Below are positions 1 through 27,551 of a DNA stretch of 27,551 nt, piece by piece (position 1 is the stretch's first letter; each line of letters opens with the position of its first letter). Location of the stretch: positions 1 to 27,551 of IMG/VR virus record IMGVR_UViG_3300034093_001305. One strand, written 5' to 3'. Origin of the DNA: a virus. The notes under the pieces were generated by a model. The model worked only from the letters and a program-made list of their open reading frames with translations. It was not told the DNA's origin and made no database searches. Made by a program: the position numbers and the translations under genes.

Positions 1-196
1 TCGAACCATTGGTTCCGCTCGTTCCATTTGTACCCGAGGTTCCACTTGAGCCATTCGTTCCAGAAGTTCCATTCGTGCCGGAGGTTCCGCTTGTTCCGCT
101 CGTTCCGTCGGTACCCGAGGTTCCACTTGAACCGTTGGTTCCGGACGTTCCATTCGTTCCGCTCGTGCCGTTGGTGCCGGAGGTTCCACTTGTTCC
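1..196 (-). repeat. 9-nt periodic Gly-X-Y coding repeats, left fibre
   Basis: Every ninth base the sequence returns to a GGN glycine codon on the minus strand, encoding GTS, GTN, GSS and GTD triplets. About 22 triplets are visible and the array runs off the window. X and Y are almost always Thr, Ser or Asn, with no proline. Such near-identical short repeats are prone to slippage and to recombination with the array at 27024-27551. Confidence 0.9.
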
Positions 197-370
197 GGAA
201 TATGTAATAGCATACGACGCGGTTTCTGCGTATGAAGATGATATGGCAAAACTCGCGGTTAATTGTGCGGTTCCTATAACAACCAAATTACCGGACACGT
301 TCAAATCTCCGGATATATTTCCGTCGCCTTCTACTATCAGGCCATTTCTGACGATTAGTTCGTTACTCAT
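1..370 (-). CDS. Collagen-like tail fibre or appendage protein, N-terminal part (runs off the left edge)
   Basis: Reading the minus strand from ATG at 368-370 gives 123 codons without a stop, so the gene continues beyond position 1. The first ~57 residues ([15 protein letters not shown]..., then a segment with [14 protein letters not shown]) are a beta-rich N-terminal module of the kind that opens many aquatic-phage fibre proteins. From residue 59 the protein is pure Gly-[11 protein letters not shown] and GTD triplets, about 22 in the window. This indicates a trimeric collagen-like shaft, probably a fibre or capsid/tail decoration used in host contact. It is transcribed in the same direction as the neck operon upstream but separated from it by 114 bases that contain an AT-rich promoter-like motif. 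A second protein of the same repeat type lies at the right end. The fibre class is well supported; its exact place on the virion is not. Confidence 0.85.
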
Positions 371-4431: not shown

Positions 4432-5169
4432 ATGATTAAACTTAAAGATTTGCTCCGGGAGAGTAATATAATAAAAATGGCCCAAGACGAAGTCCAAGAG
4501 GATTACCAACCACCGGCAGACAAAGCACCATACAGTGCACACGAATTAACGCCACCAGTACATGTGGCATATGCCGACCCAGCTGGGTACAAGAACGTTA
4601 AAGGTATGGAACCATATGTGCCAAAAAACACAGATTTCACGGGAATGAGCACGGCAAAAAAATTTGAAGTCTCTGCGAATTTTATAAAATATTTGAAACG
4701 GGTAGAGAACAATATAAAAAAGGGATTCAAAAACGGAAAGTGGTACCCTCACCCGGCGGTCGAAGGTGGAAAAAGTTGGGACATTGGATATGGTCACAAA
4801 ATAACCGCAAAAGACGATATGGCTAAATTCAGAAATGGTTTGACTGAACAGGAAGTCATGGCGTTATTGAAAAATGATATAGAAAAAGCAAAAACGGAAG
4901 TTGAGAATTATTTAAAAAATAATCGCCTGCCTACCAACCTTTCACAACACCAATGGGAAATGTTAATAGATTATTCATATAATTTAGGAACTGTTAGAAA
5001 ATTTCCAGAAATGGTAAAAGCCGTAGTATTCAAAGATTTGTCGAAAGCTAAACGGGAATATAAGAGATTTGGTACATTCGGCGGAACAAAAAAAGAATTG
5101 GGGCGCAATGCTGAATTTTATAACACGTATCTCAAAGACCCAAATGTGTGGAAAAATGGATTGGGATAA
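4432..5169 (+). CDS. GH24-type (T4-like) lysozyme with an N-terminal leader
   Basis: 245 residues. Residues ~82-245 form a phage muramidase domain cleaving peptidoglycan: KYLKRVENNIKK (Glu92, likely catalytic acid), then YPHPAVEGGKSWDIGYGHKIT (Glu111, Asp117, His122), the GH24 signature with Asp where Thr is usual. Helices follow with LSQHQWEMLIDYSYNLGTVRKFP, and the C terminus holds GRNAEFYNTYL. The first ~80 residues are not part of the fold. They begin MIKLKDLLRESN, with no signal peptide or membrane helix, and continue as a Pro/Asp-rich linker. The leader ends in Leu-Arg-Glu, matching the (L/I)-x-E rule of gp21-type proteases. It may therefore be virion-packaged or baseplate-borne rather than a holin-dependent endolysin; no holin was seen. 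First gene of the plus-strand block. Confidence 0.85.
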   Translation: MIKLKDLLRESNIIKMAQDEVQEDYQPPADKAPYSAHELTPPVHVAYADPAGYKNVKGMEPYVPKNTDFTGMSTAKKFEVSANFIKYLKRVENNIKKGFKNGKWYPHPAVEGGKSWDIGYGHKITAKDDMAKFRNGLTEQEVMALLKNDIEKAKTEVENYLKNNRLPTNLSQHQWEMLIDYSYNLGTVRKFPEMVKAVVFKDLSKAKREYKRFGTFGGTKKELGRNAEFYNTYLKDPNVWKNGLG

Positions 5170-18747: not shown

Positions 18748-18882
18748 TTATTGCCCACGGCCCCAACCACTCACACCCGTGTAATAAATTATATTGTTGG
18801 TAGAAGTTAATTTAAGACTATCGAACAACTTCTCGGCGACTGATACGTAATTCTCATCGCTGTGGGTTACGTACAAGTTCAT
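18748..18882 (-). CDS. 44-residue coupled gene, possible N-terminal remnant of a glycosyltransferase
   Basis: The ATG at 18880-18882 overlaps the stop of the heptose-kinase gene (ATGA) and the frame is open for 44 codons to TAA at 18748-18750. The product starts MNLYVTHSDENYVSVAEKLF, continues with a NIIYYTG strand and ends GWGRGQ. The T-H-x-D-E-N-Y...N-x-x-I-Y-Y-T pattern resembles the first Rossmann strand, helix and second strand of glycosyltransferases that start with 'vthgdenY'. The rest of such an enzyme is absent. Either a truncated remnant at the cassette edge or a true microprotein. Coupling and codon use resemble the neighbours, so translation is plausible. Confidence 0.5.
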   Translation of the reverse strand: MNLYVTHSDENYVSVAEKLFDSLKLTSTNNIIYYTGVSGWGRGQ

Positions 18883-19610
18883 ATGACAGATACACCGCGA
18901 TGCTTCACCACTTTACTTGCACACTTGTTCGCGAATTTGATTGCCGCCCGGATATCTTCATTTTTGCTATATTCTATCACCAACCCGGCCAAGAAAGAAT
19001 CCCCGGCCCCGGATACGTCAATAACGTCTCCTCGCTCGACTGGGAAATTCTCCCCGAGATAATAACATCCGTCTGCCCCGGATGTTTGAATTATTTTACC
19101 GGCCATCTCGGAGGTTATAACACTCTTAGACCTAGCAAATTCGTGGTCATTTATTTTAATAAATTTAACATACTTAGTCCAAGCCCCCAATACTTTTTTG
19201 GTGTCTAAAAACACGTTGGTATGATTTTTAGAAATATCCTCAATGTCCGACTCGGTCAAAAATCCCTTATCGTAATCGGATATTACAATATAATCGTATA
19301 AATAATTAATATCGCCCAAGTTAATACGTTGCATTTCTTCCGCCGAATCTAATCTAAAAAACATATGATTAGTGGAACTGTGGACATATCGTGTTTTTGT
19401 GATATTATACCAATTAGAATTGGTCACAATGTCACAATCATCTATGGTCGTTTTGATATTTCGATGCACATTCTTTGCCATGCCGGGATTGTCGTTCTGG
19501 TCAACAATCTGTAGGATTGGTACTGGCTTGTCTGGACACATACGAGTTGATGAGCAATAAACATGCACGTCTCGACAACTGTCACCTATCACTAAAATTC
19601 GTTTACTCAT
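18879..19610 (-). CDS. HldE/RfaE-type sugar kinase (PfkB family, heptose-7-phosphate kinase-like)
   Basis: 243 residues of the ribokinase fold, most like the kinase half of HldE, which phosphorylates D-glycero-D-manno-heptose 7-phosphate at C1 on the way to ADP-heptose. Signs: ILVIGDSCRDVHVYC, STRMCPDKPVPILQI (HldE has SRISPEAPVPV), DNPGMAKNVHRNI (GGAANVA-type), YIVISDYDKGFLT, VFLDTKK, and the PfkB signature VIDVSGAGDSFLAG with catalytic Asp204. The end HRGVSVI matches the GTSTV-type close of the HldE kinase domain. It is ~70 residues shorter than that domain (~310), mostly in the lid and first half, and the cytidylyltransferase half is absent. Overlaps TK-B (ATGA) and the 44-codon gene. Confidence 0.8.
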   Translation of the reverse strand: MSKRILVIGDSCRDVHVYCSSTRMCPDKPVPILQIVDQNDNPGMAKNVHRNIKTTIDDCDIVTNSNWYNITKTRYVHSSTNHMFFRLDSAEEMQRINLGDINYLYDYIVISDYDKGFLTESDIEDISKNHTNVFLDTKKVLGAWTKYVKFIKINDHEFARSKSVITSEMAGKIIQTSGADGCYYLGENFPVERGDVIDVSGAGDSFLAGLVIEYSKNEDIRAAIKFANKCASKVVKHRGVSVI

Positions 19611-20089
19611 ATTAGATGCTTGCCGTCTTTTTTAAGACAAATTATTGCCGGTTTCTTCAATAGATGCGCCTCAATCATCGCTCTCTCGGTTTCCTCCGAA
19701 TTTCTCGGGAAAAAGCTGACAATATTCTTGAATAGTGCACATAATCCCGGCGCATTCAATGGTCGGTGTGTAGGGCCATGTGTAGGATAGTCCGAGAATC
19801 CAATTAATGTCACCGGCAAACATTGCTCGTCAATGTCGATTTTAATCTGCTCAAACGGGCGTTCCAGTAGAAATGGGGTGATGGAGTATACCACGGGGCG
19901 AATGCCCTCTAAACACATCCCAGCTGCCATACTAATCATACTCTGCTCACACAGTCCAAGGTTATAAAACCTGTCCGGGAATTGTTGCTTGAATTCGTCC
20001 ATTTCTTGGACCACGTCTCCGGTAAGCAAGAATAGATTTGGGTCTTTCTTTCCTAGAGTTACTATAGTTTTACCAAATGCTTTTCTCAT
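19607..20089 (-). CDS. Transketolase subunit B (pyrimidine-binding domain only)
   Basis: 160 residues from ATG 20089 (MRKAFGKTIVTLGKKDPNLF), 4 nt after the TK-A stop. Longer readings would overlap TK-A with unrelated sequence. This is the Pyr domain of thiamine-diphosphate enzymes: LLTGDV, RFYNLGLCEQSMISMAAG with the cofactor-activating Glu48, RPVVYSITPFLLERPFEQIK, and DYPTHGPTHRPLNAPGL. In split transketolases subunit B is usually ~300 residues, with a C-terminal transketolase_C domain; that domain is missing here. With TK-A it would transfer two-carbon units between sugar phosphates, for example making sedoheptulose-7-phosphate, or build a special sugar precursor. Confidence 0.85.
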   Translation of the reverse strand: MRKAFGKTIVTLGKKDPNLFLLTGDVVQEMDEFKQQFPDRFYNLGLCEQSMISMAAGMCLEGIRPVVYSITPFLLERPFEQIKIDIDEQCLPVTLIGFSDYPTHGPTHRPLNAPGLCALFKNIVSFFPRNSEETERAMIEAHLLKKPAIICLKKDGKHLI

Positions 20090-20093
20090 ATAT

Positions 20094-20819
20094 TTAGGAT
20101 AATTGTTTAAGAATCTCAGCTTCTTCCGCTGCGTTCGGCCACTTGGAGTGCCATTCGGGCTTGTTCTCCATAAAATCCACACCTTTTCCTTTCACTGTAT
20201 TTGCTACAACAAAACGCGGCTTATCGCTGGTGGCTAGCAGCGCCGCCAATATCTCGGACTCGGCGTGTCCATCTATTATAGAAACGTCCCACCCACAAGA
20301 CTGCGCAACTGCTGCGATATTATCTACTGGTAAGATATCGCTGACATAACCGGAGCCTTGAATTTTGTTAAAATCGACTATTATTGTAAGGTTGTTCAAC
20401 TTGTGAAATCCTCCCAATAACAAGCTTTCCCAAGTAGTTCCTTCTTGGCATTCTCCGTCTCCCATTAATACAAACACACGCCCATTCTTTTTCAATTTCT
20501 TTTTTGCGAATGCCATTCCCATACCGGCAGGAAATCCGTGACCCTCGCTACCAGTTGTCCAATGTATTCCATTTGGTATATCCAAGTGTGGATGTCCTTC
20601 CAGTGTAGGATTCAACCCCTTCTCTCGCAAAATTACATAAAGCCCCCAGCAAGAGTGTCCTTTGCTCAAAATGAACTTATCGTCTTTACCAAGGACTCTG
20701 TCATATAAATTTGACAAAATTTCAATTGTTGAAAATGTGCCACCGTAATGATAGCCACCATTTGCTTTCGAGAGCTTATATAAGTCTCTACGTAACTGTT
20801 TTGAGCGTTCGTTTAACAT
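20094..20819 (-). CDS. Transketolase subunit A (thiamine-diphosphate-binding half)
   Basis: 241 residues covering the PP domain of transketolase. Marks: YHYGGTFSTIEIL, KFILSKGHSCWGLYVIL (catalytic-site His in the SKGH loop), PNGIHWTTGSEGHGFPAGMG, and the thiamine-diphosphate motif MGDGECQEGTTWES (GDGE, 120-123) ending at Asn151 in IVDFN. The end, VANTVKGKGVDFMENKPEWH, is typical of subunit A. Split transketolase pairs are common in archaea and in bacterial surface-polysaccharide clusters. The TK-B gene follows by 4 nt and ADH precedes by 3 nt, so all three are one transcript. Confidence 0.92.
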   Translation of the reverse strand: MLNERSKQLRRDLYKLSKANGGYHYGGTFSTIEILSNLYDRVLGKDDKFILSKGHSCWGLYVILREKGLNPTLEGHPHLDIPNGIHWTTGSEGHGFPAGMGMAFAKKKLKKNGRVFVLMGDGECQEGTTWESLLLGGFHKLNNLTIIVDFNKIQGSGYVSDILPVDNIAAVAQSCGWDVSIIDGHAESEILAALLATSDKPRFVVANTVKGKGVDFMENKPEWHSKWPNAAEEAEILKQLS

Positions 20820-20822
20820 ATT

Positions 20823-21833
20823 TTAAATATCAATCATTATTCTTCCACTTTTACCCGAGCGGAGCTGGTCAACTGCGGAGTTGATGTTTAACAGACCGTG
20901 TCTATCTGTGATTAAGTTTTGTAACTTTATTAGTTGGTTCTTGTAGAGATTTAAATATCTGGGAATATCGGAATCCGGGTCAAATCCACCAGCTTGAGTA
21001 GTACGAATGGATTGGCCTCCGGTGGAGAATAGTTTTCCCGGATTGATTACCGTGAGTTGTGAATCTGGTTTCGGTTGGGCCACTAATATGCAACGCCCCC
21101 GGTCGGAAAGCAGAGGCAAGTATCGAGAAACCAAAGCCATGTTGCCGGTGGTGTCTATGATGCAGTCGAATGGACCCGGAAGGTCTGCATATTCATTTCC
21201 ATTAAAAAAGATGCCTCCGTTTCTAGTTACTATACCTTCTTTTTCTGGTGCAATGTCCACTCCATATATTGGATATGCCTGAGATAAACTTGCCGCATAA
21301 ATACAATTTAATCCCACTCCACCACACCCCAAAACCAATACGCTCTCTCCAAATTTTATATTTGCATCTTTGTTTACGACGGCAAATCCGGTTGATAAAC
21401 CACATCCCAAGAGAGCAACAAAATCGTTGTGAGTATCGAGCGCCACTCTGGTCAATCTATTTTCCGATACCACGCTATATTCCGACAATGTCGTAATCTT
21501 CCCACCAGACATGGACTTTCCATTCAACCTATAAACAGGAAACTTGGCTTCTATTCCACTCCCCTTTCTCCAATGCATAACTACCTTATCACCAAATTTT
21601 ACTTTGGTTACTCCCGGTCCTATTGCCTCAACAATGCCACATCCCTCGTGACCGATAAGATGTGGCATGAATTTTTCATTTCCTTTTAGTCCGGCTATCT
21701 CTTGGAGTTGTGCTCCACAAAGACCGCTAACTAACACCTTTACTATAACTTGACCGTAGTCTAGAGTGTTTGGTAGTTCGACATCTTCTATAACTAACGG
21801 TTCGTTCTTTTTATATAAAACGGCAGCTTTCAT
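20823..21833 (-). CDS. Zinc-type medium-chain alcohol/polyol dehydrogenase
   Basis: 336 residues. MDR-superfamily NAD(P)-dependent dehydrogenase that interconverts an alcohol and a carbonyl, here presumably on a sugar intermediate. Catalytic zinc ligands: Cys39 (GLCGAQ), His62-Glu63 (IGHEGCG) and Cys144 (LLGCGLSTG). Rossmann nucleotide motif LGCGGVGLN at 168-176 with Asp in YGVDIAPE, favouring NAD. The four-cysteine structural-zinc loop of classic ADHs is missing and replaced by HWRKGSGIEAKFPVY, a feature of some secondary and polysaccharide-locus dehydrogenases. A promoter-like sequence lies just ahead of it, so it may head a sub-operon ADH-TkA-TkB-kinase. Confidence 0.9.
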   Translation of the reverse strand: MKAAVLYKKNEPLVIEDVELPNTLDYGQVIVKVLVSGLCGAQLQEIAGLKGNEKFMPHLIGHEGCGIVEAIGPGVTKVKFGDKVVMHWRKGSGIEAKFPVYRLNGKSMSGGKITTLSEYSVVSENRLTRVALDTHNDFVALLGCGLSTGFAVVNKDANIKFGESVLVLGCGGVGLNCIYAASLSQAYPIYGVDIAPEKEGIVTRNGGIFFNGNEYADLPGPFDCIIDTTGNMALVSRYLPLLSDRGRCILVAQPKPDSQLTVINPGKLFSTGGQSIRTTQAGGFDPDSDIPRYLNLYKNQLIKLQNLITDRHGLLNINSAVDQLRSGKSGRIMIDI

Positions 21834-21843
21834 GTATAGAAAT

Positions 21844-21871
21844 ATAGTAAACTTTTAAATCTATATGTCAA
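21844..21871 (-). promoter_or_regulatory. Sigma70-type promoter ahead of the dehydrogenase gene
   Basis: Minus strand TTGACA (21871-21866, full consensus), 16-base spacer, TACTAT (21849-21844, 4 of 6). An alternative -10, TATATT, gives a 19-base spacer. Only 10 nt separate the -10 box from ATG 21833, implying a leaderless or near-leaderless mRNA. Confidence 0.5.
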
Positions 21872-21877
21872 GAAAAA

Positions 21878-24625
21878 TTACCAAATAGTTCTTCCACCAT
21901 CAATTATAAGATTGTGTCCTGTTACATATGACGAGGCGTCGGATGCCAAGAATACTGCCCCACCAGCAATTTCGTCGGCGCAGCCAACACGTTTCATTGG
22001 TACCATGTCGGATAGCCCACGTACATACTGTGGATTTGCATTCGCCGCGTCTGCTGGGGGTTTAGGAAAGTGGCCCGGACTTATACAATTTACTCTTATA
22101 CCTTTATCGGCATATTGAACTGCAAGTTCTTTGGTCAGTTGAATAGATGCCGCTTTTGCTGCACAATAAAACGCGGTCGAACTTGGTACAACTTGATATG
22201 CACGTTGGTCTATTCCAATCATTCCATATATGGACGCAATATTAATTATATTGCCATAATTTTTCTTGGTCATTTTTGGTAAAACTACCTGACAGCACAT
22301 GAATTGCTGAGTGAGAATGTTATCCATGCCAGTAGACCAGTCTGCATCTGTCAATTGTTCGAACGGTTTTCTTTTTTCGTTGAACGCATTATTTACTAAA
22401 ATATCTACGTCGCCTATATTGTCTATGACCGATTGGAACTGACTCCTGTCTGTCACGTCGCATACGGTTGGTATAATATTATCTTTTAGAAAATTTTCCG
22501 CTGTTAATAACTTATCTTTTATTTTTGATACATCTCTACCAATAGCATACACTTTTGCACCTTGTGCCACCAGTCCCATGCAAATAGATGCGCCCAAATG
22601 CCCACCCGCCCCAGTGACGACTGCGGTTTTACCTTTCAAATTAAACAGATTATTATAAAAAGATGGGTCGGTTATTAATTTTGTAGACTGTCTTGCTTCT
22701 GGCGAATTATCAATTTTTGGCGGAGGCGTATTTACTACCAAACTTACTTTCTTTTGTTTCTCGGCAGCAATTTCATCAGATGGCCGATTATCCATATAAA
22801 TTAGAATTTCTTCGTAATATTCTAGGAAATGTTCATTGAATAAATCCCATTTTATATCTACGCCATCTACACTACGAACTTCGTAGTTATTAATGGTAAC
22901 TAGATAAGTATCTCTAAATTTACGGAATGCCTCGGTTCTGGGTTCATCTTCTAGATGCCACTCACCAGCAACTTTCTTGACATTTTTCATAATCCAATCT
23001 CTGTTTTCAACCGTGAATATATCATATTCCCCACCCTCACAGTCAATCTTCATGAAATCTATTTTGTCAATCTTAGCCTCCGCCATTATGTCTAATAATG
23101 GAGCCGTCGTGAAATCCTCAACCACACAGTCATACACCAATCCATCTTTTATAAATTGAGGCTCTTTTGATACGCCTTTGTTTACTACGATGACCGGCAA
23201 TCCTTCTAGATTTTTCTTTAATACTTCGGACCTAATTGCACTTGGTTCGACTGCCACGACAAGCTTTGGCTTCTTTCTAAATGCGCCACATGAAAATGCG
23301 CCAACGTGTGCGCCAATGTCCATAACAATATCTCCGTCTTGAACTTCAAACATAGATTCATATACATTGTCCAAGAATATTTCTCTATATAACAATTCCT
23401 TTTGGCCAGTTGTCACCCGGCTTCCCCACTGGAATTTGTGTATTGTGTTTCTGTAGAATGGAGTTTGCAATTTGTCAATTTCTTTAATGACCATTTCAGA
23501 GCTGATTTGTGTGGTGCACTCGAAATTTTTCTTTCGGGGACAATACATCCAATTTCCTTTATCGAATTTGGTAGTGTCATCGTTTGTGCATCCGTGACAC
23601 ACGCTTTTATTTATAACTCTGTGTGGCGTGAAAAACTCTGTAAATCTGTCACCCACTCCACTAATCAATATTACCGGAATTCCAACTGTCCATGCAATCC
23701 ATGATAGACCAGAACTTAGCCCGATGAAAAAGTCAGCCCCACTCAGTTGTTCCATGCGAACTTCGAGTGGGAAATCCCCCGTCTTATCGACCGCTCCTCT
23801 CGGCATATAGTTCATAGACTCTTTACTTCCATACGAACTGTGTCTATCTATGCACCACACCTCATATCCAAGTTGTTTTAAGTATCTAACAACTTCGTCC
23901 CACCCCGTCTTATTGTTCCAGTACTTGAATTGCGCGGTAGATTGCATTCCAATACATACATATTTTTTATCGCCATGCTTCTTTGACCTATCAAATGCAA
24001 ACGTCGGTTTGAAATCTACCATTCCAAATCCTAGTATATCGCTTGCAATATTTGCCAAACACATATGTTGAGGGTTACGTCTTGCACGACCTTGCCAATT
24101 CGAAAACCAACCTATCTTGTATGCCGCATAATAGTCTTCATCCCGCTCATTTACACCGGAAAAAGATATATTTTTATAATTTTCTATAAATATGTTACGC
24201 ATCACTTCGCTAAAAACGACGCAATGTAATTGACATTTATGTTTAAATTGGAATTCGTTTACTGCTCCAATATAAGCAATCAAATCCCCAATTGATTGTG
24301 TATCTAACACTACTTTTACCGGTTTATTTTCTAATGTTAATTTTTCTTCTTTTACCACCGTAGAACCGAGTTTCACGACAACTTTCCAATTTACAAAATA
24401 TTTCGTGTTATCTGCACACCACATATTATTTTTTATAGTGGTAGAATAGGTGATAGAGTTCTTATCCAAGTCTATAAAATCGACTGTATATTCTTCCGGA
24501 ATATCCCCGGTTATATTGACTTTTGGGCCATCTACGAAGCTGATTCGTATATTATTGTGTATGTCTCCCACGTCTGTAGGACTAAGCATTGCATTTTTAT
24601 AACTGTCAATTAGCTCGTACTTCAT
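21878..24625 (-). CDS. Three-domain fusion: TibC/BAHT-like O-heptosyltransferase, FkbM-type methyltransferase, short-chain dehydrogenase
   Basis: 915 residues. Residues 1-~385 resemble the autotransporter O-heptosyltransferase family (TibC, AAH), which moves heptose from ADP-heptose to protein serines. Marks are RISFVDGPKVNITG, DTQSIGDLIAYIG (Asp114 likely general base), IGLSSGLSWIAW, and a metal finger CHGC...YCPRKKNFEC (Cys343, 346, 362, 370), the signature of that family. Residues ~415-575 form an FkbM methyltransferase: VMDIGAHVGAFS, AVEPSA, FMKIDCEGGEYDIF. After a Pro-rich linker (~615-660) comes an SDR: VTGAGGHLGAS, NNAF, IINIAS and Tyr/Lys in YCAAK, with ISPGHF and IDGGRTIW closing. 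The start overlaps the stop of the GT gene (ATGA). I know of no described protein with this domain order; that rests on memory. Confidence 0.85.
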   Translation of the reverse strand: MKYELIDSYKNAMLSPTDVGDIHNNIRISFVDGPKVNITGDIPEEYTVDFIDLDKNSITYSTTIKNNMWCADNTKYFVNWKVVVKLGSTVVKEEKLTLENKPVKVVLDTQSIGDLIAYIGAVNEFQFKHKCQLHCVVFSEVMRNIFIENYKNISFSGVNERDEDYYAAYKIGWFSNWQGRARRNPQHMCLANIASDILGFGMVDFKPTFAFDRSKKHGDKKYVCIGMQSTAQFKYWNNKTGWDEVVRYLKQLGYEVWCIDRHSSYGSKESMNYMPRGAVDKTGDFPLEVRMEQLSGADFFIGLSSGLSWIAWTVGIPVILISGVGDRFTEFFTPHRVINKSVCHGCTNDDTTKFDKGNWMYCPRKKNFECTTQISSEMVIKEIDKLQTPFYRNTIHKFQWGSRVTTGQKELLYREIFLDNVYESMFEVQDGDIVMDIGAHVGAFSCGAFRKKPKLVVAVEPSAIRSEVLKKNLEGLPVIVVNKGVSKEPQFIKDGLVYDCVVEDFTTAPLLDIMAEAKIDKIDFMKIDCEGGEYDIFTVENRDWIMKNVKKVAGEWHLEDEPRTEAFRKFRDTYLVTINNYEVRSVDGVDIKWDLFNEHFLEYYEEILIYMDNRPSDEIAAEKQKKVSLVVNTPPPKIDNSPEARQSTKLITDPSFYNNLFNLKGKTAVVTGAGGHLGASICMGLVAQGAKVYAIGRDVSKIKDKLLTAENFLKDNIIPTVCDVTDRSQFQSVIDNIGDVDILVNNAFNEKRKPFEQLTDADWSTGMDNILTQQFMCCQVVLPKMTKKNYGNIINIASIYGMIGIDQRAYQVVPSSTAFYCAAKAASIQLTKELAVQYADKGIRVNCISPGHFPKPPADAANANPQYVRGLSDMVPMKRVGCADEIAGGAVFLASDASSYVTGHNLIIDGGRTIW

Positions 24626-26742
24626 AGATATAATTCACTTTTAATTAGATTGATATTAGTTGTAAAATCTCCCGGTGTCAAGTACTTTACATTACTATAT
24701 TTCGCATACATGTTTTTATATGCTGGTAAATTGTGTATAAGACAAGGCAATTTCCACGAAATTGCTTCGCGTATAACTAGAGGGGAGGTCTCCATTTTAG
24801 ATGGAAATATCATTAAATCTGCCGCTTGGCAAAACGTATCCACGTCTTTTCTTTCTCCCCAAATAACACAATTATTAGGAAGGGCTTCCATAATAGGTTT
24901 CCAATACTGCTCGAAATTTGACGCTTGATTTCCTATAAAGTGGAATTTGACCTTCTTACCAGTCAGAGCCCGAGCAAGTTCTATTGTCTCAGCTTGATTT
25001 TTCCATGGAGCAAACAGACCTACTTGTATGATATGTTTATATTCCGGGTCAAGTCCTAGAGATTTCTTTGAATTTACCTTGTCTGGCTCAGATATATCTA
25101 TAGGATATTCTACGATACTGTACGGCACTCCGAATTGCTTATAAATATCGGCCTGATATTCAGACACAAACAAAAACTTATCTGGGAAAAATACCTTTTC
25201 TTCGGGTTTAAAATAAATCCCGTGATAGCTCTCAAATAATAGATAATTTCTATCCTTTCTATAAATAGTCTTTGCTATGTCCGAACGAACGAAGGATTCC
25301 GGGAATTCTTCTAAATGAATCACGTCCGGAGAAATATTTTTTATTATTTCCAGCAAATCCTCTTTGGGTCTATCCCCAATACTAGTAAACCTGTCACCCA
25401 AAAGACCTATGATTGCATCGCGCTGTACTACATACTCCGACGCAATGAAGTTATATTCGACACAGTACACCTCAAATTCGTCGTTAAGTAATTGTATTTT
25501 TTTGAGCAAGTACTGTGGAGCCCCGCCCGTAGATAAATGTTGGGCTATATATAAAATCTTTAGTTTTTTCTTGGCCGCATTTATTTTTCTGCTGGAATTG
25601 AAATTTTTAAGTTTGGTGGCTCCAATTTCCCCCACTGCTTCCCAGCTATATTCTCGCCGAATATCGGGAGAATATAACATGGCCCGAGTTTTATGCGAAT
25701 CGTAATTTTTATATGCATCGCGCATCACTTCACCCAGATGTGAAAAATCCGGCTCATAAAAATCCCCGGAACACACCGGAGAAATCTTCTCTCCCATAAT
25801 TCTTACTGGCAATCCTCGATTTTTTGTAAATTCCAGCTGGCCACTGCAATTAGAATATATCACAGGAGTTCCACATGCCATCGCCTCTATCAATGGCAAA
25901 TTCCAACCTTCTCCGCGAGCACAAGAAAGAAAAACGTGCCCCTTTTTTATGAATTTTATATAGTCTTCGCGGGATGTAAAATGTAATATTTTTATACGCG
26001 AGTCTTCAATCCCGAAATGTGCAAGCCTTTCTTCGGTAGTTTTAAATTCATCTTGGGAGAACCTATTGTCTACTGATATAATTAAGTCTACTGGCTCATC
26101 TCGGCCAAACGTTGCGAGAAATGTCCGAATTATTTCAGTTGTGGATTTTCTATACTCCCAGCGACCAAAAACTACAAATTTAAATCGTCCATCTTTATAA
26201 TATTCATCAAACTCTATATTCTCCGGAAAAAATACTTCGGATTCAACACCCGCCGGAACAACCTGTAGTTTTGCTTCCGACATTCCTTGTTTTACCATAC
26301 ATTCTTTTTGCCAATTGCTGGCTACCCAAATCTCATCATATCCTACGATACGGTCAAAGAAGTGCTGTGGAAGTCTGGTAGATTCCCATACCATATATGC
26401 AATCTTTGGTCCTTTATAGCTATCGTAGAAGTAGAACCCGTCTACAATTTCTATTACCAAATTTACATCGAATGGTTCCGTAGGTTGTTCATATATTGAA
26501 TAATCCTTACGTACACCATTATCCCACAAAGTTTGTTTGTATAGAATTTTCTTATCTGTTTCTGTTAGATATGGCTCCTTGTCGTGTGGAGTATTATTTC
26601 CTCCCCACGTCTCACCTACGGTGAAATTGCGCGCTTTTAGGTTGCAATGCTTAGATAATTCTCTTAAAAAATGTCTAAAATGATTATTTAGACCCGTTAC
26701 TCCTATATAGGAAGTGTGTGCGCAAACATTTAAATTACTCAT
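24622..26742 (-). CDS. Tandem GT-B glycosyltransferase (two GT4-like domains)
   Basis: 706 residues in two glycosyltransferase units. Domain 1 (~1-385) has YMVWESTRLPQHFFDRIVGY, DEIWVASNWQKECM, VVPAGVESEVFFP, FKFVVFGRWEYRKST, and the E-x7-E donor motif GEGWNLPLIEAMACGTPVI (Glu278, Glu286). Domain 2 (~393-706) starts LKILYIAQHLSTGGAPQYLL and has a second nucleotide-sugar pocket, MIFPSKMETSPLVIREAISW. Each domain would add one sugar from an activated donor, so the protein may build a disaccharide. Domain 1 is the better-preserved GT4 type. It heads the cassette, with a near-perfect promoter at 26751-26778, and is translationally coupled to the 915-residue gene. The acceptor is unknown: the fibre, host glycan or a sugar on the fibre. 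Confidence 0.9.
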   Translation of the reverse strand: MSNLNVCAHTSYIGVTGLNNHFRHFLRELSKHCNLKARNFTVGETWGGNNTPHDKEPYLTETDKKILYKQTLWDNGVRKDYSIYEQPTEPFDVNLVIEIVDGFYFYDSYKGPKIAYMVWESTRLPQHFFDRIVGYDEIWVASNWQKECMVKQGMSEAKLQVVPAGVESEVFFPENIEFDEYYKDGRFKFVVFGRWEYRKSTTEIIRTFLATFGRDEPVDLIISVDNRFSQDEFKTTEERLAHFGIEDSRIKILHFTSREDYIKFIKKGHVFLSCARGEGWNLPLIEAMACGTPVIYSNCSGQLEFTKNRGLPVRIMGEKISPVCSGDFYEPDFSHLGEVMRDAYKNYDSHKTRAMLYSPDIRREYSWEAVGEIGATKLKNFNSSRKINAAKKKLKILYIAQHLSTGGAPQYLLKKIQLLNDEFEVYCVEYNFIASEYVVQRDAIIGLLGDRFTSIGDRPKEDLLEIIKNISPDVIHLEEFPESFVRSDIAKTIYRKDRNYLLFESYHGIYFKPEEKVFFPDKFLFVSEYQADIYKQFGVPYSIVEYPIDISEPDKVNSKKSLGLDPEYKHIIQVGLFAPWKNQAETIELARALTGKKVKFHFIGNQASNFEQYWKPIMEALPNNCVIWGERKDVDTFCQAADLMIFPSKMETSPLVIREAISWKLPCLIHNLPAYKNMYAKYSNVKYLTPGDFTTNINLIKSELYL

Positions 26743-26750
26743 TCTCCGCC

Positions 26751-26778
26751 ATTATATAACTATAACATAGATTGTCAA
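26751..26778 (-). promoter_or_regulatory. Consensus sigma70 promoter of the glycosylation cassette
   Basis: Minus strand TTGACA (26778-26773), 16-base spacer, TATAAT (26756-26751): both boxes match the E. coli sigma70 consensus exactly. The ATG at 26742 is only 8 nt beyond the -10 box (GGCGGAGA between), so the transcript would be essentially leaderless. It implies immediate use of host RNA polymerase. Confidence 0.7.
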
Positions 26779-26795
26779 GCAATAATTTACTATAA

Positions 26796-27551
26796 TTATG
26801 CCCCCATCATCATAAATATTGGAGAGAAATCTGGCGTAGCCGCAGCTATTGTGCCTGTAACAGTCAATGATCCTGTTATGATTGTATTTCCATTTACATC
26901 CAATTTTGCATTCGGTGTAATTGTACCAATACCAAGGTTAGTGCCGTCATCATACAAGAAATTGCTTGATGATATAGTGTTTGTGCCAGAGATTTTTACC
27001 AGTCGATTTGTTCCGGAGATGGATAATGATGTACCGGACGTTCCACTCGAACCATTCGTTCCGCTCGTTCCATTTGTACCCGACGTTCCGTTGGTACCCG
27101 AAGTTCCACTCGACCCGTTAGTGCCAGAGGTTCCACTTGAACCGTTCGTGCCACTCGTTCCGCTTGAACCGTTGGTGCCAGATGTTCCGCGAGTTCCGGA
27201 CGTTCCACTCGACCCGTTGGTACCGGACGTTCCACTCGAACCATTCGTTCCACTCGTTCCATTTGTACCCGACGTTCCGTTCGTGCCACTCGTTCCACTC
27301 GAACCATTCGTTCCGCTCGTTCCATTTGTACCCGACGTTCCGTTCGTGCCACTCGTTCCACTCGAACCATTCGTTCCGCTCGTTCCATTTGTACCCGACG
27401 TTCCGTTGGTGCCACTCGTTCCGCTTGAACCGTTCGTGCCACTCGTTCCACTTGAACCGTTCGTGCCAGAGGTTCCACTTGAACCATTGGTGCCAGATGT
27501 TCCGCGAGTTCCGGACGTTCCGCTCGAACCGTTCGTACCACTCGTTCCACT
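26796..27551 (-). CDS. Collagen-like tail fibre protein, C-terminal part (start lies beyond the right edge)
   Basis: The minus-strand frame is open from 27551 to TAA at 26796-26798, 251 residues visible with no start. About 176 residues (~58 triplets) are Gly-[11 protein letters not shown], with rare GTR and GTP-free triplets. The last 75 residues are a beta-rich tip: SISGTNRLVKISGTN, FLYDDGTNLGIGTITP, AKLDVNGNTIITGSLTVTG, ending FSPIFMMMGA. The N-A-K-L-D-V-N-G-N segment is frequent in phage fibre tips. No S74 chaperone domain is seen. It lies 54 nt upstream of the glycosyltransferase operon, reading in the same direction. Its Thr/Ser-rich shaft is the natural candidate acceptor for that cassette. 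Confidence 0.85.
   Translation of the reverse strand, partial: SGTSGTNGSSGTSGTRGTSGTNGSSGTSGTNGSSGTSGTNGSSGTSGTNGTSGTNGTSGTNGSSGTSGTNGTSGTNGTSGTNGSSGTSGTNGTSGTNGTSGTNGSSGTSGTNGSSGTSGTRGTSGTNGSSGTSGTNGSSGTSGTNGSSGTSGTNGTSGTNGTSGTNGSSGTSGTSLSISGTNRLVKISGTNTISSSNFLYDDGTNLGIGTITPNAKLDVNGNTIITGSLTVTGTIAAATPDFSPIFMMMGA
27024..27551 (-). repeat. 9-nt periodic Gly-X-Y coding repeats, right fibre
   Basis: About 58 consecutive triplets, mostly GTS, GTN and GSS, running off the window edge. The same triplet vocabulary and near-identical DNA blocks occur at 1-196. Confidence 0.9.
27238..27426 (-). repeat. Three tandem 63-bp direct repeats in the fibre shaft
   Basis: Units 27238-27300, 27301-27363 and 27364-27426 (21 residues, seven Gly-X-Y triplets each). 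Units 1 and 2 differ at one base; unit 3 differs from unit 2 at three. A diverged fourth copy begins at 27049. Recent in-frame duplication is the simplest cause. Confidence 0.9.

Follow-up and report, generated by a model that had tools for sequence, protein, structure and literature searches.

What does a phage do with a relative of the bacterial O-heptosyltransferase TibC when the gene lies close to a fibre gene built of Gly-Thr-Ser/Asn triplets? The question is posed by the virus record IMGVR_UViG_3300034093_001305, classed as linear, whose 27,551 bases are the whole stretch of DNA analysed here (the window). It encodes a 915-residue fusion of a TibC-like domain with an FkbM-type methyltransferase and an SDR oxidoreductase domain, within a run of sugar-related genes beside a collagen-like fibre. 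An earlier note, made from the sequence alone, had read this as a phage that makes a modified sugar and decorates its own fibre shaft with it. That reading was partly supported: the BAHT/TibC identity of the enzyme and a general link of such enzymes with Thr/Ser-rich Gly-X-Y proteins in phages and bacteria stood, and a strict tie of the enzyme to such a fibre within the window's own clade did not. Judging from sequence comparisons, we consider it fairly probable that the locus is a phage module for the O-glycosylation of fibre serines, and that in this phage the collagen-like fibres are the most likely acceptors.

The TibC/BAHT-like assignment of the fusion protein (21878–24625; minus strand, as are all cassette genes) was supported. 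Its O-glycosyltransferase domain, residues 1–390 (23456–24625), scored 322.4 bits against TIGR04414, the autotransporter O-heptosyltransferase family, for which the curated cut-off is 200, and matched the TibC structure 4RAP in phmmer (2.7e-69). An AlphaFold2 model of the domain (predicted local distance difference test, pLDDT, 82) had an N-terminal beta-barrel and a GT-B core, with a template-modelling (TM) score of 0.86 to 4RAP. Passages of PMC4358343 give D110 as the catalytic base of TibC and T226, K230, R286 and W305 as sugar-binding residues; all five are kept in the window enzyme, as D114, T230, K234, R290 and W309, and the iron-finger cysteines C339, C342, C358 and C370 of TibC correspond to C343, C346, C362 and C370.

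Conservation was assessed over 67 clusters at 75% identity, comprising viral records and four loci from genome contigs. The positions of D110 and W305 were invariant (67/67 each), K230 was kept in 66 and T226 in 62 (Ser in the remaining 5), and each iron-finger cysteine was present in all 67; D110 and C358 lay inside the scan patterns, so that part of their invariance is due to selection. The R286 column, by contrast with these, was variable: Arg 32, Thr 14, Val 8, Ile 6, Leu 3, Ala 3 and Cys 1, and all nine inspected sequences from the window's clade had Arg. As Arg occupies this donor-site position in only 32 of the 67 clusters, the comparison hints that different branches may transfer different sugars.

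The enzyme is widespread among viruses. At least 583 IMG/VR stretches encoded a TibC relative in one alignment-based scan, from which 79 loci were kept. In 52 of the 67 clusters, at least 300 residues preceded the TibC domain in the same frame. In 14 of the 18 TibC records with Thr/Ser collagen a family 4 glycosyltransferase (GT4) match lay just upstream, in an open reading frame (ORF) equal in length to the TibC ORF and thus fused to it, one of these matches being below the cut-off. Conversely, TibC lay downstream of the GT4 N-domain in all 78 non-self loci among the best 80 of 344 matches, which made this domain unusable as a TibC-free control. Four of 50,697 deposited phage records matched TibC, two of them alike in length and position, and one was an isolate, Microcystis phage Mel-JY01. 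Upstream of its fusion gene, Mel-JY01 has an open frame of 1,016 codons, 447 residues of which form a Gly-X-Y run rich in Thr and Ser. Two antisense genes are annotated over most of this frame (L007, 1–3052); Gly-X-Y repeats are open on several frames, so that wrong-strand gene calls are easily made.

The C-terminal end of the fibre, open at the window edge, occupies 26796–27551 on the minus strand (PF01391), and continued in the near-identical record L002 the protein reaches at least 1022 amino acids, with 315 Gly-X-Y triplets when runs of at least 8 are counted. In L002 the X position was occupied by Thr (77%) and Ser (23%) and the Y position by Ser (62%), Asn (35%) and Arg (3%); neither Pro nor Lys occurred in the 315 triplets. 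The protein thus has the long uninterrupted Gly-X-Y repeat of collagen-like proteins and lacks their Pro-rich X and Y positions. The collagen-like profile PF01391 gave 93.5 bits over the whole protein (cut-off 27.2), no single stretch passing alone. A second collagen-like gene starts at the other end of the window (1–370, minus strand) and is cut by it; in the longer, likewise near-identical record behind L003 this gene encodes at least 2765 amino acids (PF01391, 377 bits), with two long Gly-Thr-Ser segments (L613, 2074–10368). A beta-helix part seen by eye in this second fibre was not upheld, as Pfam found only collagen there. Collagen repeats stood at five of the six contig ends of the window, L002 and L003 records, and may represent two genes or parts of one.

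The association between enzyme and repeat was quantified in viral records of at least 15 kb (shorter ones were left out) with verified Gly-Thr/Ser or Gly-Pro-type triplets. The starting point was 119 loci per type, of which 13 Thr/Ser and 15 Pro loci lacked a verified run of 8 triplets, while Thr+Ser was below 35% in 2 Thr/Ser loci; eligible rows were the 80 listed loci per collagen type, and the eligible Thr/Ser records L168 and L170 (104 kb) stood outside the 50 that were used. TibC was present in 18 of 50 Thr/Ser-collagen records vs. 1 of 44 Pro-collagen records (Fisher p 2.4e-5), at similar summed lengths (2.79 and 2.25 Mb, respectively), and in 11/14 vs. 1/14 of the records of at least 60 kb. 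Neither TibC nor the pattern for Gly-Thr-Ser repeats (GTS pattern) was found in 36 records picked with an arbitrary 15-base pattern. Approached from the enzyme, the GTS pattern occurred in 23 of 49 TibC records found regardless of collagen, three of which are bacterial genomes without a pattern match; after clustering 47 of the TibC records at 75%, it occurred in 13/31 vs. 0/36 (p 8e-6). This pattern also accepts Gly-Thr-Thr, and repeats with Ser in first place, as in Mel-JY01, escape it. A link of the repeat to glycosyltransferases in general was considered and set aside, PF00534 showing no significant contrast (18/50 vs. 10/44, p 0.18). The repeat lay about 10 kb or less from TibC in 11 of the 18 records with both. 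In records longer than 50 kb this was the case in 8 of 12, whereas random placement of a single repeat gene would give 2.25 (p 0.0003; p 0.017 if two per record are assumed).

The earlier note had suggested looking for the same gene pair in other phage genomes, and enzyme and Thr/Ser repeat do recur together, both in other phages, including Mel-JY01, and in bacteria. Searching TIGR04414 over three overlapping genome draws gave matches in 2/369, 1/8 and 6/109 genomes, together 7 distinct ones; they are called gammaproteobacterial after L089, L090 and the draws around them, and these two had first been found by the phage profile. In all seven (L585–L589, L089 and L090) a small (GSS/GTS)n gene lay 143–1024 bp from the enzyme match, and L585 had a second one at 1184 bp. 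By the same rule, no such ORF was found in 386 kb of control sequence away from the enzyme in three of the seven genomes. The repeat-gene products start lipoprotein-like by eye (..GCGG.. or ..AACN..) and carry the (GSS/GTS)n part towards the end, followed by an acidic stretch in four of the seven and with one inside the repeat in another. They share GSS and GTS triplets with the phage fibres, 85% of the Y positions being Ser, and three of the four repeat genes given to Pfam (L585, L586 and L588) passed the collagen cut-off. The neighbours in L089 and L090 were a Rieske oxygenase, a histidine kinase, a response regulator, a transporter and DUF6502, none of them phage genes, and two other pairs lie on contigs 308 and 290 kb long. 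L088 (Schekmanbacteria), where the one Ser-rich ORF is weak and lies 5.1 kb from the enzyme, was not counted among the seven. The bacterial pair is the best evidence for Gly-X-Y repeats as acceptors, and suggests that the TibC-type family can use them; the two-gene unit of lipoprotein-like repeat and TibC-type enzyme is possibly a system of its own.

The sequence comparisons establish the enzyme family, its active-site residues, the gene order and the recurrent link between enzyme and repeat, and from these we infer an acceptor, a sugar, an extended glycan and a role. Fibre serines would receive a sugar from the TibC-like domain, most likely a heptose with ADP-heptose as donor or else a closely related sugar; in this phage the likeliest acceptor sites are in the giant collagen-like genes, at their Gly-Thr-Ser and Gly-Ser-Ser triplets. 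For this particular fibre the assignment draws on its position beside the cassette, on the kind of repeat and on what is seen more widely. Lengthening of the glycan would fall to the tandem GT4 protein and its methylation to the FkbM domain, and the SDR domain, the alcohol dehydrogenase, the kinase and the two transketolase parts would supply or modify the sugar; host or off-contig genes presumably provide the heptose steps that are missing. Glycosylated threonine can stabilise a triple helix. The sugar may replace the role of proline and stiffen the predicted Pro-free triple helix, and glycosylation may also protect the fibre or change how it binds. Tentatively, the two settings could be variants of one dedicated "glyco-collagen" system, in which Pro-free repeats depend on a cognate BAHT-type enzyme for stiffness or protection, the bacterial pair being its minimal and the giant phage fibres its expanded form.

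Transketolase can produce sedoheptulose 7-phosphate, the starting point of the ADP-heptose pathway. The kinase family of the window is also found in the cyanophages S-SM2 and P-TIM68 (56 and 51% identity, respectively), whose deposited annotation lists alcohol dehydrogenase, transketolase and kinase together with phosphoheptose isomerase, nucleotidyltransferase and epimerase genes. In P-TIM68 the first three stand in a row, and in S-SM2 they do so with one unknown gene between, which resembles the window; the isomerase, nucleotidyltransferase and epimerase genes set both phages apart from it. S-CAM1 has an annotated heptose kinase (HldE-like) and an ADP-heptose epimerase. None of these three cyanophages is among the four phage records with TibC. 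Together with the conserved ADP-heptose site, the cyanophage modules and the transketolase chemistry favour a sugar that is probably of the heptose type. A survey of 74 proteins out of 123 candidate neighbours returned FkbM in 7, GT2 in 4 and PfkB in 1, with no heptose-pathway family among the best 25 of 40 Pfam and the best 25 of 82 NCBIfam families.

Several observations weigh against fibre glycosylation as set out above. The first concern the enzyme and its sugar. The thumb-tip residues F265/V266, which form the dodecamer contact of the TibC ring, are replaced by E269/S270 in the window enzyme, in a region (residues 264–270) where the model has pLDDT below 50, and the thumb is cut to 10–13 residues in 20 of the 67 clusters; with the hydrophobic tip lost, we filed the enzyme as a divergent branch and not as a canonical ring-forming BAHT. 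TibC itself modifies Ser, not Thr, and does so on a beta-helix rather than on Gly-X-Y repeats, as stated in passages of PMC4358343; the serines of the fibre are likelier targets than its threonines, both of which the earlier note had considered. The HldE-type kinase of that note is present as a gene of the PfkB family, with a distant likeness to HldE (98 bits against the HldE equivalog profile, cut-off 345). Neither GmhA isomerase, GmhB phosphatase or HldE nucleotidyltransferase nor an autotransporter acceptor family was detected by Pfam among the main ORFs of the window, the record being a fragment.

Further points against come from the window's own clade. Terminase matches served as a control, with 31 loci hand-picked from 80 for their upstream sequence (at least one more locus with an equally long upstream stretch, L403, was passed over). 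TibC was present in 19 of the 31 and Thr/Ser collagen in none of the stretches at hand, so that enzyme and repeat are not strictly linked in this clade on this evidence. Among whole clade records, four of 50–91 kb had no GTS-repeat match, while one of 43 kb, that of L018, had GTS matches outside the TibC locus. The earlier note had regarded cassettes without a collagen-like fibre as grounds for abandoning its proposal, and such cassettes thus exist in part, the L018 record being on the other side. In the 13-row tree clade of the window, only the window, L004 and, weakly, L033 had Thr/Ser collagen in the locus. Its presence was also traced as a label over the whole tree. The test left out 18 clusters that had been found through Thr/Ser collagen as well as rows of 270 amino acids or fewer, and scored L004 (Thr+Ser 0.35, just below the cut) positive by hand; of 54 labelled rows, 27 were positive for Thr/Ser collagen at the locus, including 5 bacterial loci that were added later, and 27 were negative. 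The label required 9 changes, 8 of them forced by well-supported branches, vs. 18 when shuffled, so that it is clustered yet has repeatedly arisen or been lost.

Beyond the clade, the 78 GT4–TibC loci mentioned above, which were not dereplicated, also count against a strict link: 16 had collagen low in Thr/Ser, 14 had the Thr/Ser type and 48 had none in the stretch. In the co-occurrence set, 7 of the 18 records with both had the repeat outside 10 kb of TibC, and phage group and habitat may lie behind part of the co-occurrence. Two relatives have a larger part of the cassette in common with the window. L356 shares GT4, TibC, FkbM, alcohol dehydrogenase and kinase, and its GT4 gene is preceded by a 217-residue protein, no collagen being seen in the stretch still on the contig before GT4; L361 shares GT4, TibC, FkbM, SDR and both transketolase parts, and its contig is cut at GT4. 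Several GT4–TibC phages (L443–L447, L459, L460 and L507) carry collagen-like stretches low in Thr/Ser, a number of them Pro/Gln-rich. With relatives standing beside other collagens or Ser/Thr-rich proteins, the acceptor range of TibC-type enzymes is probably wider than collagen.

The strongest alternative follows from these points, namely that the enzyme glycosylates virion proteins but in this clade acts mainly on some other structural protein, Ser/Thr-rich or beta-helical, and that the collagen-like fibre is incidental. Besides the terminase loci, it is favoured by 15 loci in two clusters (L036–L044, L046–L050 and L053) in which 77–102 bp separate TibC from the gene for a protein rich in Ser and Thr and about 1300 amino acids long (927 in one cut contig), and by Ser/Thr-rich proteins, by eye Ig-like or Pro-Thr-rich, near TibC in L018, L025, L029 and L033. 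The part of the second fibre that looked beta-helical by eye would also fit, with the Pfam result given above. Moreover, one tree placed E. coli TibC as the nearest outside row to the window clade (support 87/88, branch not starred) and the other did not; on the former, a beta-helix or a different fibre could be the acceptor in this phage, which also speaks against the collagen. This alternative leaves the contrast between the two collagen types (18/50 vs. 1/44) and the bacterial pairs unexplained, and GTS-type repeats were present elsewhere in 10 of 11 L036-cluster records searched whole (in G160 by a single Gly-Thr-Thr match). We regard it as rather unlikely.

An improbable alternative is that the cassette alters host lipopolysaccharide or capsule and so blocks superinfection. 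Loci of that kind typically contain GT4, FkbM and sugar enzymes, and a passage of PMC7029224, which also mentions rfaE, reads the glycosyltransferases beside tail-fibre genes in the hypervariable region of pelagimyophages in this way. TibC and AAH, however, are protein O-heptosyltransferases, the window enzyme sits between fibre and terminase genes, and the bacterial pair couples the enzyme to a repeat protein. That the glycosyltransferases hypermodify phage DNA is very improbable: the first GT4 domain does match PF20706, a family 4 glycosyltransferase in conflict systems, but no DNA-base modification family was found by Pfam in the main ORFs of the fragment, and we know of no DNA-modifying precedent for a TibC domain.

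Every gene that the earlier note had named in a coupled run beside the Gly-Thr-Ser/Asn fibre is present on the minus strand, and neighbouring genes overlap or nearly abut. Next to the fibre end, in the gap before the cassette, lies a promoter-like sequence, where the note had seen a promoter-led run: a sigma-70-type match (TTGACA-16-TATAAT, 26751–26778, minus strand) that is perfect at 12/12 positions and is a pattern match only. It stands just before the gene for a 706-residue protein with two GT4 domains (24622–26742; PF00534 in two stretches, E 9.8e-30; N-domain PHROG 2170). In the fusion protein that follows, the TibC domain is succeeded by the FkbM-type domain (approximately 22700–23350; PF05050, E 1.7e-7, residues 436–544) and the SDR domain (21878–22660, about residues 656–915; PF13561, E 3.1e-45). 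A zinc-type alcohol dehydrogenase (20823–21833; PHROG 2640) precedes a split transketolase, with a thiamine diphosphate-binding subunit (20094–20819; PF00456, E 7.8e-23) and a pyrimidine-binding subunit (about 19607–20089, mechanical ORF to 20182; PF02779), and the run closes with the PfkB-family sugar kinase, distantly like HldE domain I (18879–19610; PHROG 8133). The terminase is reached after the kinase and two unknown genes. Terminase, portal, prohead protease and gp23 capsid genes of the window are T4-type by profile match. A phage lysozyme gene (4432–5169; PF00959, E 1.5e-10) lies on the plus strand among the minus-strand structural genes. A circular contig was rejected, as the ends do not overlap.

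The main weight of the finding lies in the widespread phage family and the bacterial pair. If the proposal holds, many phages bear glycosylated fibres that current annotation overlooks, BAHT enzymes gain Gly-X-Y repeats as a second class of acceptor besides autotransporter beta-helices, and a sugar-stabilised, Pro-free collagen becomes directly testable with two genes. Searches of open-licence PMC papers brought up no report of a TibC-type enzyme together with a collagen-like phage fibre, as judged from titles, abstract openings and selected passages.

Among known systems, Bacillus BclA is similar in being a glycosylated bacterial collagen-like shaft. Its glycan differs in being rhamnose-based, its repeats contain proline and are glycosylated on threonine, and no BAHT enzyme is known to be involved. 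Phage-encoded enzymes reportedly make the glycans of mycobacteriophages. These glycans are found on virion proteins, namely at capsid and tail-tube C-termini (Freeman et al., 2023, as cited in a passage of PMC12619734), whereas the window combines a BAHT-type enzyme with Gly-X-Y fibres. Glycosylation by a virus of its own collagen is on record for Mimivirus, a virus of amoebae (PMC9546862). The collagen glycosyltransferases of Mimivirus, among them the lysyl hydroxylase-glycosyltransferase L230, act on hydroxylysine, whereas the repeat of the window has no lysine and its enzyme is of the BAHT type. The enzymes most alike are TibC of enterotoxigenic Escherichia coli and AAH (4RAP/4RB4), with which the window protein shares fold, catalytic base, four sugar-binding residues and iron finger at 34–37% identity in structural alignments. 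It differs from them in that no autotransporter partner was seen and the hydrophobic thumb tip is lost, and in being phage-borne and fused to FkbM and SDR domains, many of its relatives being fused to GT4.

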